DNA of 37,963 bases, taken from the IMG/VR virus record IMGVR_UViG_3300023174_000354, positions 1 through 37,963 of that record, one strand, 5' to 3'. Made by a program: the position numbers and the translations under genes. Under the pieces are notes generated by a model. The model did not search any database. It was given only the letters and a program-made list of their open reading frames with translations, and had not been told where the DNA came from. Each line of letters begins with the position of its first letter. Positions within the stretch are counted from its first letter, which is position 1. Source of the DNA: a virus. Of the stretch, positions 33,695 to 37,963 are shown one piece after another.

Positions 33695-34020
33695 ACCGGC
33701 CCCACTACATCACGCCACCAGCCGACGAGGCACTGCCGCTCTTCGCATCCGCGCGGCGCAGCGATCCGGCAACGTCGCACGCTGCGGCGAAGACTGCACC
33801 AGTGGCTGAACACCAGAGGCTCATCCTTGACGCACTTGCCATCGGCCCGGCTGGGGCTAGCGGCATCGCTGCTCGATGCGGACTGCTCGGGCATCAAGTT
33901 AATAAGCGACTCGCGGAGCTTGCACGCACTGGCAGGATTGTTGAGACGGGACGAGTGGTCACAAGTGCGAGCGGACGTGGAGAGAGGGAATGGCAAATCA
34001 ACTCAAGGAGGATCGCATGA
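33691..34020 (+). CDS. Winged-helix DNA-binding protein
   Basis: 109 residues from ATG 33691 (ATGA overlap). PLFASARRSDPATSHAAAKT is a phrase common to phage regulators, followed by a winged helix: LILDALAIGPAGASGIAARC then GLLGHQVNKRLAELARTGRI, and a wing VVTSASGRGEREW. It overlaps the methyltransferase gene start and is probably translated with it. A regulator or recruitment factor is likely. Confidence 0.6.
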   Translation: MNRPHYITPPADEALPLFASARRSDPATSHAAAKTAPVAEHQRLILDALAIGPAGASGIAARCGLLGHQVNKRLAELARTGRIVETGRVVTSASGRGEREWQINSRRIA

Positions 34021-35393
34021 CGCAGGTACGGGATGACATCAAGATTGATTCCGAGTTTGCCGCACTTATTCCACCGCTTTCTGCGGAAGAGCGCAAGCAG
34101 CTCGAAGACAACATTGTTGAACACGGAGGCGCTAGAGATCCGCTTGTTGTTTGGGTTCACGAGACGTGGACGCCGGAAGGCTGTGAGGAGCCTTTGAATT
34201 ACGACGACGGCGAGACGGAACAGCTAGAGGACGGCAGCGGCGGAAGCTACACCGTCTGGGACGGCGACGATGGCGACACATACTTTAAAGAAGATTGGCC
34301 ATGCACGCTGCTCGACGGCCACAACCGCTACGAGATTTGCACGCGTCTAGACCTTCCGTTCGACATTGAAGAAATGCGGTTCAGTGACCGCAGCCACGCC
34401 GAAGAGTGGATTATCCGCAATCAGTTCGGGCGGCGCAACTTGTCGGCGTACGTCAGGACGCAGTTGGCGCTCAGACTTGAGGAAAACATCGCGGCGAGGG
34501 CAAAGGCTAATCAAGTTCGCAAACCAGGCGATTCTGTTTGTCAGATTTCTGACAAACAGAAGATCGACACAAAAAAAGAAGTTGCCAAGGCCGCCAGCGT
34601 GTCGCACGACACCGTTGCGAAGGTCAAAAAAATCGACGCCGCCGAGAAGGCTGGGAAGGTTGACGCTGAGACTGTTGCCAAGCTTCGCACAGGCGAGGTC
34701 TCGATCAATCGCGTGGTGCGTGACCTCAAGGAACAGGAAACGGCAGCCAAGCGCGAGGAACAGAAGGTCGTCGCTATCGCCAAGCGGAAGGACGTTGACG
34801 GCCTTTACCTCGGCGACTTCCGCAAGATCGGCGAAAAGATTCCCGACGCATCGGTTGATCTGATCTTCACTGACCCACCGTACGACCGGAAGGCAATCGA
34901 GTTGTACGACGGCCTTGGCGAATTCGCCGCCAGAGTGCTTCGGCCTGGCGGAAGCCTGATTGCTTACATCGGGCAGATTCAACTTCCTGACGCCGTCGCC
35001 GATCTGTCAAAGCATCTCCGCTACTGGTGGACATGCTCTTGCTACCACAGCGGGCCGTCGCTCCTGAGGATGAACGAGTATGGCATCGTGAACGGCTGGA
35101 AGCCAATGCTGTGGTTTGTGAAGGAGACTCGCGGGGACAAGACGACGTTTATCAATGACGTAGCAACCGGAAGCCGTGAGAAGTCTCACCACGAATGGCA
35201 GCAATCCGAGGCAGAGGCTCGGTACTTCATTGAGTTACTTACCGATCAAGACGGTTTTGTAGTGGACCCGTTTTGCGGAGGTGGCACGACCCCCGTCGCC
35301 TGCGTCAAGGCTGGCCGCAAGTGGGCCGCGTTTGAGGTTGACGAAGCAAACATTTCACGCGCCAGCGAGCGCATCAAGGAAGTGCAGCAATGA
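34017..35393 (+). CDS. ParB-domain / DNA methyltransferase fusion
   Basis: 458 residues from ATG 34017 with AAGGAGG upstream. Residues about 10-160 are a ParB/sulfiredoxin-like domain: EHGGARDPLVVW, CTLLDGHNRYEICTRLDLPF, and EEWIIRNQFGRRNLSAYVRT. Residues 180-240 hold an HTH (TKKEVAKAASVSHDTVAKVK). The methyltransferase part has motif IV DPPY (286-289) before motif I DPFCGGGTT (417-425), the beta-class order of N4/N6 enzymes. Phages use such proteins to methylate their DNA, for host-restriction evasion or control. A 26-base-plus hairpin lies at 34532-34561 in the linker. ATGA links it to the next gene. Confidence 0.8.
   Translation: MTQVRDDIKIDSEFAALIPPLSAEERKQLEDNIVEHGGARDPLVVWVHETWTPEGCEEPLNYDDGETEQLEDGSGGSYTVWDGDDGDTYFKEDWPCTLLDGHNRYEICTRLDLPFDIEEMRFSDRSHAEEWIIRNQFGRRNLSAYVRTQLALRLEENIAARAKANQVRKPGDSVCQISDKQKIDTKKEVAKAASVSHDTVAKVKKIDAAEKAGKVDAETVAKLRTGEVSINRVVRDLKEQETAAKREEQKVVAIAKRKDVDGLYLGDFRKIGEKIPDASVDLIFTDPPYDRKAIELYDGLGEFAARVLRPGGSLIAYIGQIQLPDAVADLSKHLRYWWTCSCYHSGPSLLRMNEYGIVNGWKPMLWFVKETRGDKTTFINDVATGSREKSHHEWQQSEAEARYFIELLTDQDGFVVDPFCGGGTTPVACVKAGRKWAAFEVDEANISRASERIKEVQQ
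34532..34561 (+). repeat. Perfect inverted repeat inside the methyltransferase gene
   Basis: TTCTGTTTGTCAG (34532-34544) and CTGACAAACAGAA (34549-34561) form a 13-bp stem with a four-base ATTT loop. It codes for the linker between the ParB and HTH parts. Its perfect symmetry is not needed for coding. Confidence 0.75.
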
Positions 35394-35976: not shown

Positions 35977-36786
35977 ATGGCCGGTGACTGGCTCAAAATG
36001 CGACACGACCTAGCAGACGACCCTGCTGTCATTCGTCTGGCGACTCTGTGCGGGCTGGAGGAGGACGCCGTCATTGGCAAGCTCTTCCGGCTCTGGTCGT
36101 GGGCCGACCGCCACAGCAAAGACGGCCAGGTCGAAGGGGTCGATCTGGCGTGGGTAGATCGTTTGGCTCGGCGTGACGGGTACGGTGCCGCCCTTGTCAG
36201 GGTGGGCTGGCTTGTCGAAACAGGCGAGGGGCTGAGTTTCCCGCGTTTCGACAGGCATTGCAGCGACACCGCAAAGGCCCGTGCGCTCGGGAAAAATAGG
36301 GCTGAAACGTACCGTAACGCTCCGAGCGTTACAGGTTCGGCGCAGCCCGTAACGCTAACACCGTTACCAGAGAAGAGAAGAGAAGAACTTCCTCCTCTAC
36401 CGCGTGAGGGATTCGACAAGACGGCATGGCAGACGCTCCGCAAAGCCTGGAACGCAGGCAAGGGAAAACCGTGGAAACCAGTCAACCCGCATCCGAAGGC
36501 AGTCGAGCGTCTTTCCGAGCCGGGATGGCTGGAGAACGCATTGCAGGCGGTTGAGCGGCTTGGCCGGTGCAAGTTCTTCCGTACCGCCGTGTCGCTTGGG
36601 CAGTTCTGCGGGCCTGAGTTCGTGACGCTGTGCAACGGCGGCGAATACGACGACCGCAACGACGACCGGAAGAGCCGTGACTTCGCCGACGCCGCACCTC
36701 CACCGAAGGAGTGGACCGGAGAAGCAGCCGAGGCGCTTGAACGTACCCGTAGAAAACTAGCAGCCAGCAAGGAGGCACTCGCATGA
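35977..36786 (+). CDS. Replication initiator protein, lambda O-like organisation
   Basis: 269 residues from ATG 35977, with GGAG eight bases before (GTG 35968 in frame is weaker). The N-terminal 105 residues, DWLKMRHDLADDPAVIRLAT, FRLWSWADRHSKDGQVEG and RLARRDGYGAALVRVGWLVE, form the winged helix seen in phage replication initiators. A loose linker (residues 110-140, RNAPSVTGSAQPVTLTPLPE) follows, then a C-terminal helical domain (FDKTAWQTLRKAWNAGKGKP; AVERLGRCKFFRTAVSLGQF) that may load the helicase. The linker-coding DNA holds GTAACG dyads and a purine tract, like the origin in the lambda O gene. It overlaps the LexA-like gene by ATGA. Confidence 0.65.
   Translation: MAGDWLKMRHDLADDPAVIRLATLCGLEEDAVIGKLFRLWSWADRHSKDGQVEGVDLAWVDRLARRDGYGAALVRVGWLVETGEGLSFPRFDRHCSDTAKARALGKNRAETYRNAPSVTGSAQPVTLTPLPEKRREELPPLPREGFDKTAWQTLRKAWNAGKGKPWKPVNPHPKAVERLSEPGWLENALQAVERLGRCKFFRTAVSLGQFCGPEFVTLCNGGEYDDRNDDRKSRDFADAAPPPKEWTGEAAEALERTRRKLAASKEALA
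36314..36387 (+). other. Candidate replication origin inside the initiator gene
   Basis: Two 19-base dyads, GTAACGCTCCGAGCGTTAC (36314-36332, perfect) and GTAACGCTAACACCGTTAC (36349-36367), 35 bases apart, are followed by the purine run AGAGAAGAGAAGAGAAGAA (36369-36387). This is the arrangement of iterons plus an unwinding region. The shared half-site GTAACG also occurs in the early promoter operators. Confidence 0.5.
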
Positions 36787-37025
36787 CAGAAACGACAACA
36801 GAACGCCAGCCGCTTACGCCCCGTCAGACGGACGTGAAAAACTGGATCAGCGGCTACATCGACACGCACGGCTTCTCGCCGACGATTCGCGAGATCCAGC
36901 ACGCCTACGGCTGGAAGACGCCTAACGCTGCCAAGTGCCACTTGGAACCGCTTCGCAAGAAAGGCCATGTGACGTGGCAGGAAGGCTGCTCGCGGACTAT
37001 TCGCGTGATCGGGGGTGACGCATGA
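36783..37025 (+). CDS. LexA-like winged-helix protein, domain only (copy 2)
   Basis: 80 residues from ATG 36783 (ATGA overlap). PLTPRQTDVKNWISGYIDTH, then GFSPTIREIQHAYGWKTPNA then AKCHLEPLRKKGHVTWQ and a wing SRTIRVIGGD give the full LexA DNA-binding domain and nothing else; the self-cleaving part is missing. In copy 1 (1-153) the equivalent turn is YSPTVREIAKAM. It lies just before a small protein and the second membrane peptide. It may occupy SOS boxes or phage operators without being cleaved on damage. Confidence 0.75.
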   Translation: MTETTTERQPLTPRQTDVKNWISGYIDTHGFSPTIREIQHAYGWKTPNAAKCHLEPLRKKGHVTWQEGCSRTIRVIGGDA

Positions 37026-37213: not shown

Positions 37214-37476
37214 ACGACATCGCCCTCATCTTCGTCGGCTCAATACTCCACGCCGCGACGTTCGCGGCTGGCATTTCGGTTGGTATACGTCTCAGAAAGG
37301 ACACGAGACATGGCGACAACAACGAAGGAACGAAAGACCAGACCTGGTGGCATACGCCTATCAGCACCGGCGTTGAAAGAGGCGTTGGCTGCGGTAGCCA
37401 GTGCCGTACCGACAAAAAGCCCACGCCCCATTCTGCAGAACGTGCTCCTTTCGGGCGGAGTTCTGTCTGGGAGTGA
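37210..37476 (+). CDS. Small single-helix membrane peptide (copy 2)
   Basis: Starts at GTG 37210 overlapping the previous TGA. Residues about 3-26 are one membrane helix (NDIALIFVGSILHAATFAAG), followed by VGIRLRKDTRHGDN. It resembles copy 1 at 150-311, with ATF..G..VGI..RKD..H kept. The frame stays open to 37476 and overlaps the clamp gene (from 37310) by 167 bases in another frame. The tail after about residue 33 is low-complexity and may simply follow from clamp coding constraint. The GAAAGGA that serves the clamp lies in the RKD codons. Confidence 0.55.
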   Translation: MNDIALIFVGSILHAATFAAGISVGIRLRKDTRHGDNNEGTKDQTWWHTPISTGVERGVGCGSQCRTDKKPTPHSAERAPFGRSSVWE

Positions 37477-37963
37477 CCTTGAGATCCGCATTGACGTTGA
37501 AGTGGAGGCCGACCCGTCTCTGACTGTGCTGCTGCCACGCGACCGGCTGCAGGCGATCCTCGGATCTGTGACGGCTGACGAGATCACGCTGACGCCTGAC
37601 GGCACCTCGTGCGTCATCTCGGCTGGCCGTGGCACGTGGACGCTGCCGACCGAGGATGCCGCCGAGTATCCGACGTGGGAGCCCGTGGCGCTCAAGCCGA
37701 TCACGCGGATGCCAGCCGACCAGTTCGTGCGGGCTGTCCGTGGCGTCGTGTTTGCCACCGACAACGAGTCCAGCCGGTACGCTCTCGGTGCGGTGCTCAT
37801 TGAGGTGGCCGGCGACGTTGTCACGCTCGTGGCAACTGACGGCAGGCGGCTCGCGTCTGTCACCTGCGAGCACGACCAGGCCGTGGACGACTCGCAGACG
37901 CTGGTGCCAGCACGGGCGATGGAAATCATTGCAAGGCTCGCGGATCACGCTGGTGACGCTGGC
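37310..37963 (+). CDS. dnaN: DNA polymerase III beta sliding clamp (3' truncated by window end)
   Basis: 218 codons are visible, ending at the window edge in frame. ALKEALAAVASAVPTKSPRP then ILQNVLLSGG is the clamp domain 1 entry. YALGAVLIEVAGDVVTLVAT then DGRRLASVTCEH carries the clamp hallmark ATDGRRLA of domain 2, preceded by VRGVVFATDNESSRYALG. A full clamp is about 370 residues, so domain 3 lies beyond the window. ATG 37310 has GAAAGGA (37295-37301) eight bases upstream, inside the membrane-peptide gene. The ring would tether DNA polymerase on phage DNA. The style resembles planctomycete clamps. Confidence 0.9.
   Translation, partial: MATTTKERKTRPGGIRLSAPALKEALAAVASAVPTKSPRPILQNVLLSGGVLSGSDLEIRIDVEVEADPSLTVLLPRDRLQAILGSVTADEITLTPDGTSCVISAGRGTWTLPTEDAAEYPTWEPVALKPITRMPADQFVRAVRGVVFATDNESSRYALGAVLIEVAGDVVTLVATDGRRLASVTCEHDQAVDDSQTLVPARAMEIIARLADHAGDAG

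Follow-up and report, generated by a model that had tools for sequence, protein, structure and literature searches.

An array of half-sites and an (AGAGA)n purine run inside a phage initiator gene as a probable replication origin

Introduction

Mapped phage origins are few outside the well-studied models, and an origin that resides inside the gene of its own initiator is already a familiar kind, known from phage lambda and from the RepA_N plasmids. In lambda, the inverted repeats that are bound by the initiator are situated in the part of gene O that codes for the inter-domain region, and an easily melted tract with purines nearly all on one strand adjoins them (PMC5043065). This asymmetry has been documented for the lambda origin, and the accumulation of purines on one strand at origins such as that of lambda was termed "paradoxical" in a review on strand opening (PMC5043065). 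It has further been demonstrated that in-frame deletions in the AT-rich half of the lambda origin leave an O protein that still complements in trans (PMC6022878). Similarly, in RepA_N initiators such as Rep of plasmid pSK41, the origin occupies the centre of rep, where it codes for the linker that connects the DNA-binding winged-helix domain with the C-terminal host-factor domain, and this central, ori-encoded part of Rep is dispensable (PMC5703833).

The locus described here follows the same plan, with the easily melted tract on the same side of the repeats as in lambda, but it differs from both systems in its parts. Where lambda has four iterons of 18 bases and the A-rich tract AAAAGAAAAAAGAAAAGA, the present phage has two dyads of 19 bases, which represent four half-sites, and members of its family carry an (AGAGA)n run beside half-sites that stand 11-14 bases apart and are variable in their letters; in a scan of PHROG profiles, the initiator showed no relationship to lambda O, as no O-like PHROG matched. 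The RepA_N origins contain AT-rich Rep boxes instead of the GT..AC half-sites of this family, to which they are not linked by any Pfam sequence match.

Results

The window, i.e. the whole stretch of 37,963 bases that was analysed, is an IMG/VR virus record (IMGVR_UViG_3300023174_000354) that codes for an integrase, a RecT-like protein, an exonuclease, head, portal and terminase. Since structural genes are present together with the integrase, the RecT-like protein and the exonuclease, the phage is probably temperate. The relevant features are the following:

35977..36786, plus strand, replication initiator gene, 269 amino acids (PHROG 2509, E 3e-44; AlphaFold2 pLDDT 81)
36314..36332, no strand assigned, dyad 1, GTAACGCTCCGAGCGTTAC, half-sites GTAACG / CGTTAC 14 bases start to start, exact match
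36349..36367, no strand assigned, dyad 2, GTAACGCTAACACCGTTAC, half-sites GTAACG / CGTTAC, exact match
36368..36368, plus strand, junction C between the last half-site and AGAG
36369..36387, plus strand, (AGAGA)n purine run AGAGAAGAGAAGAGAAGAA, 19 bases, proposed DNA unwinding element, longest purine run of the gene
36783..37025, plus strand, next gene, early operon, 80 amino acids, LexA-type DNA-binding domain only (PF01726, E 2.7e-19)
37310..37963, plus strand, sliding clamp (DnaN-like), truncated at the record end, replication neighbourhood (PF00712, phrog_947)

The initiator belongs to an early region and is followed shortly downstream by a phage-encoded sliding clamp. No helicase loader gene adjoining the initiator was identified within the record, which stops 1.2 kb downstream. 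Upstream, at 33990-35393, a ParB-like N-terminal half is fused to a DNA methylase in a single ORF.

The initiator protein matches two profiles that are both named "replication initiation protein", PHROG 2509 (residues 1-137) and PHROG 9474 (E 9e-27), and no further PHROG at E ≤0.1 in the profile scan, the O-like PHROGs included. Neither a Pfam scan at E 0.1, which included the RepA_N domain, nor a sequence search against solved structures returned a match. In the AlphaFold2 model, a confident N-terminal fold extends to about residue 95, residues 115-141 are disordered (pLDDT <50) and the C-terminal domain is helical. A winged-helix nature of the N-terminal domain is plausible from this model, which solved structures match weakly: the best Z score with VIA-align was 5.1, level with unrelated winged helices and not above background, the RepA_N structures 5kbj, 4pql and 4pt7 gave 4.7-5.0 over 82 residues, which is within the chance range, and Foldseek found nothing at E 0.001.

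In the initial annotation, two 19-base GTAACG-N7-CGTTAC dyads, 35 bases apart and followed by a 19-base purine run, were placed in DNA that codes for a loose linker of the initiator. All of these elements are found exactly where they had been located, and they code for residues 113-137, so that the term loose linker is appropriate. The first half-site of dyad 2 lies 21 bases, i.e. two helical turns, past the last half-site of dyad 1. Both dyads are the sole exact matches to the motif in the whole record; the remaining eight matches each contain three mismatches, and the total of ten compares with a chance mean of 8.9. Additional diverged dyads elsewhere in the record were hence discarded as candidates, their number being at chance level only. 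The annotation had also remarked that two dyads are fewer than the four iterons of lambda and that other sites may therefore have diverged; this part did not hold, as the two dyads amount to four half-sites and thereby come near the usual number in the family (a mean of 2.7 besides the last one), which makes additional diverged sites unnecessary.

There is no second copy of the purine run in the record, in which both matches to AGAGAAGAGAAGAG with up to two mismatches fall within the run itself. For ease of melting, the 25-mer starting at 36364 ranks at the 99.4th percentile in the record and at the 99.7th in the gene. Since the GC skew is above zero in nearly every 2-kb window, the long genes are mostly on the plus strand and the record, which is linear, may be incomplete, the position of an origin cannot be read from the skew.

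Among ten near relatives, this phage included, none of the 24 half-site bases varies and only one of the 20 bases of the run and its preceding C does so, compared to 25 of 44 in the remaining linker. This conservation is at the level of the DNA: where the amino acid is invariant, the third codon base varies in 1 of 14 codons inside the element and in 43 of 94 elsewhere (Fisher p 0.007). The possibility, raised with the annotation, that relatives encode the same linker residues without keeping the dyads was not borne out in these ten sequences. In distant relatives, the layout is retained with a different half-site sequence. Taken together, layout and DNA-level conservation among the relatives strongly support the lambda-like plan that had been proposed, namely an origin in the DNA coding for the initiator linker.

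Searching viral contigs at the protein level yielded 43 loci, among which the half-site occurs as GTTAC, CGGAC, GTGAC, GCCAC or GCAAC, and nearly every locus repeats its own version several times, as a rule with copies in either direction; TCTAC is another version seen in relatives. The letters change as a set, which is also evident from a swap test on the 90 bases upstream: 20 dereplicated homologues contained on average 2.8 copies of their own half-site vs. 0.19 of another locus's, and for 73 loci that were chosen by the run alone the values were 1.77 and 0.31, with none of 10,000 permutations reaching the observed total in either set. The half-site was identical in all 30 protein pairs with more than 90% identity, and it differed in 7% of the pairs at 80-90%, in 56% at 70-80% and in 80% at 40-50% identity, a pattern that is expected if site and protein change together.

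The geometry, by contrast, stays. Over the dereplicated loci, adjacent half-sites that point the same way have a spacing of 11-12 bases in 177 of about 190 cases, and those that stand head to head have one of 14 bases in 100 of about 119. The arrays seen most often are -25 +11 0 and -36 -25 +11 0; the latter occurs with GTTAC, CGGAC and GTGAC, and its -25 +11 0 portion also with GCCAC and GCAAC. The array of this phage, -49 +35 -14 0, consists of two dyads with facing half-sites 21 bases apart and is common to six dereplicated loci. All these spacings are compatible with sites that lie along the same side of the double helix. As a side observation, initiator residues 31, 51, 55 and 56 (36067-36069 and 36127-36144) vary most with the half-site type and are candidates for determining DNA specificity; since the sequences are related, this ranking (51, 55, 31, 56) was kept out of the evidence.

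Wherever a homologue covers the linker, no purine run in its gene is longer than the one that starts directly after the last half-site position. As sets selected by the run favour it, its frequency can be measured only in sets selected by protein. In such a blind sample of 78 usable initiator genes, chosen by an N-terminal protein motif alone with the linker ignored, 74 genes have their longest purine run in the linker region, and in 64 genes the longest run begins with AGAG; its median length is 24 bases vs. 13 after synonymous-codon shuffling. When the genes from all searches were pooled, part of them chosen by the run, 133 of 146 dereplicated genes showed the typical run start, which is preceded by ACC in 101 and mostly by CCT or ACT in the others. 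Here as in the other comparisons, relatedness among the sequences means that the counts are not independent. Of the 13 exceptions, most retain the half-sites with an interrupted or shifted run, and one (L227) apparently has neither.

The run is also among the easiest-melting 1% of the 25-mers of its gene in 125 of 132 cases, compared to the 85th percentile as the control median. Over the 20 bases past the run, A+T is 0.52 vs. 0.43 in the gene; many members have an AT-rich stretch there, and the exception is the subfamily of this phage, which has pyrimidines (CTTCCTCCTC). In the present phage, a pyrimidine tract, CTTCCTCCTCT, which codes for PPLP and is conserved in the subfamily, directly follows the run at 36388-36398.

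The codon phase of the run is 0 in 86, 2 in 44 and 1 in 3 of the 133 genes, such that ACC|AGAGAAGAG is translated in three ways, as TREEK, LPEKRR and QRREEK. Arginine is encoded by AGA in 338 of 344 cases inside the run and in 188 of 2656 outside, and in an E. coli Rac-type prophage the purines persist as (AGAGGA)n though the peptide is EEEEEE. From the three phases, the AGA usage and the EEEEEE case, we conclude that selection acts on the DNA.

Discussion

From our point of view, the element is very probably the replication origin of this presumably temperate phage, located inside the gene of its own initiator, a reading for which conservation at the DNA level, the change of the half-sites as a set, the fixed geometry and the low melting stability speak. 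The N-terminal domain would bind to all four half-sites from the same side of the helix (spacings of 14, 21 and 14 bases), and the strain of this complex could lead to melting of the adjoining, purine/pyrimidine-asymmetric (AGAGA)n tract. The C-terminal domain might then recruit the replicative helicase or its loader to the opened strand. The linker tolerates almost any residues, and therefore its coding DNA is free to be an origin.

The same features have to be weighed against other functions. An autoregulatory operator, at which the initiator binds within its own gene and blocks transcription without the locus being an origin, would fit the position of the sites, and the helical phasing of the half-sites is equally typical of a repressor. 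We nevertheless regard this as quite improbable, since it leaves unexplained why a conserved, easily melted purine run abuts the last half-site, since a location 340 bases inside a gene is rare for operators and since the element is found in gene families named as replication initiators. A similarly small probability is assigned to a hairpin in the mRNA or in single-stranded DNA that regulates translation or serves as a priming site, with the half-sites not being bound as double-stranded DNA. Nine of ten tested segments indeed fold better than their shuffles (z -3.7 to -6.7), and of the 107 arrays with three or more half-sites, 105 contain both orientations; as symmetric half-sites necessarily fold, such a hairpin keeps some probability. 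Against it, pairing in the spacers is only slightly above chance, 0.44 vs. 0.36 ± 0.03, with the excess at the base adjoining the half-site, one of the ten segments folds no better than its shuffles, the spacing of 11-12 bases between half-sites of the same orientation persists where these are unpaired, and some unrelated initiators, two of them in the spacing analysis, carry repeats of one orientation at 11-12 bases.

Even less credit can be given to selection on the protein, with the DNA repeats as a by-product of RN/VT residues that recur and of a charged linker of the EKRRE kind. Conservation does extend to the peptide, as permutations of EKRRE arise from every frame of (AGAGA)n, but neither the preference for AGA inside the run nor the EEEEEE peptide of the Rac-type prophage would be expected; furthermore, the half-site set changes while the layout persists, and ACC|AGAG is preserved whether it is read as TREE, LPEK or QRR. 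It is just as hard to see the purine run as a recombination joint for swapping initiator domains between phages. The run is common to unrelated initiators, and an N-terminal domain with its repeats has apparently been exchanged against the same C-terminal domain in YdaU of the K-12 and 442/2 Rac prophages, yet geometry, half-site set changes and the fixed junction would be left without explanation, and facilitated swapping might rather be a side benefit of an origin.

The YdaU pair (L322:120-977 from K-12 Rac and L166:1228-2016 from the 442/2 Rac record) deserves a closer description. The ydaU gene of the 442/2 Rac record carries the same half-sites and a purine run. In the K-12 gene, whose product is a DUF1376-type protein, (AGAGA)n is missing; this gene contains the repeats TGTTCAAACA and a tract rich in both purines and A+T. 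The C-terminal domain is common to both proteins, the N-terminal domains are unrelated, and each gene has its own repeats. Binding domain and binding sites have apparently been exchanged as one cassette. The Rac prophage has an active origin, named oriJ (PMC3945230). As the N-terminal half of K-12 YdaU is different, oriJ provides no direct evidence for this initiator family, and the Rac ydaU of record MN652886 was for the same difference rejected as a stand-in for the K-12 gene. Among described phages, Salmonella phage epsilon15, Xanthomonas phage CP2 and Pseudomonas phage phiPSA1 share the N-terminal family, the kind of half-site array and (AGAGA)n with the present phage, but their half-sites differ (CGGAC in epsilon15 and phiPSA1), as do their C-terminal domains; their annotations mark no origin at the corresponding stretch.

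The purine run is not confined to the family. When viral contigs were scanned with the 18-base run, at least 120 loci were found, of which at least 63 among the matches listed belong to the same initiator family by their start motif. For 41 other listed loci, the leading named PHROG families were mostly replication initiation, primosomal, O-like or DnaD-like, and the Pfam families included DUF1376, Lin1244_N and Phage_rep_org_N. In 12 of 27 unrelated loci, an upstream 6-mer is repeated beyond chance (p < 0.05, uncorrected), often in steps of 10-12 bases. A nucleotide search of phage records gave no match. Across the genomes of 84,980 species of bacteria and archaea (257 Gb), the 20-mer ACCAGAGAAGAGAAGAGAAG is present at only 64 places, about 50 of them in genes of the same initiator family and nearly all of these with repeated half-sites upstream; at least one upstream half-site copy exists at 56 of the 64. 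Judged by record title, the hosts include Pseudomonas, Enterobacteriaceae, Burkholderiales, Planctomycetes, Verrucomicrobia including Akkermansia and one Oscillospiraceae, and hence represent at least four phyla.

One could speculate that the (AGAGA)n tract after ACC serves otherwise unrelated phage initiators across phyla as a portable element for unwinding or helicase loading, which is read by a conserved partner such as the host helicase, a loader or a single-strand binding protein, while the initiator and the adjoining half-sites shift their specificity in step. We consider this wider reading a real possibility, albeit one that falls somewhat short of probable. If correct, the DNA word ACC(AGAGA)n would be a general marker of phage origins. 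In the open-access literature, we found no description of a portable purine module with exchangeable half-sites and no paper that prints the peptide EKRREEKRRE, and none of the papers containing GAGAAGAGAAGAGAAG concerns phages. Should the origin reading be true, origins in the phages and prophages of Proteobacteria, Planctomycetes, Verrucomicrobia and Firmicutes could be located without experiment from a short sequence word together with a rule for the half-sites. The family would further offer a natural series of initiators in which DNA specificity has changed at constant architecture, and a way to test why lambda-like origins hold all purines on one strand.

Some occurrences stand apart. 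Outside initiator genes, AGAGA runs were seen on the minus strand at L075:60-130, where TTGCTTAGCAT repeats precede the run, and at L098:819-836, in both cases beside a terminase-like gene. The Planctomycetes TBK1r chromosome (G001) carries the initiator twice, as L265 and L291, at a distance of 44 kb; the match scores of these copies are equal and their half-site arrays identical, and they perhaps belong to neighbouring prophages.
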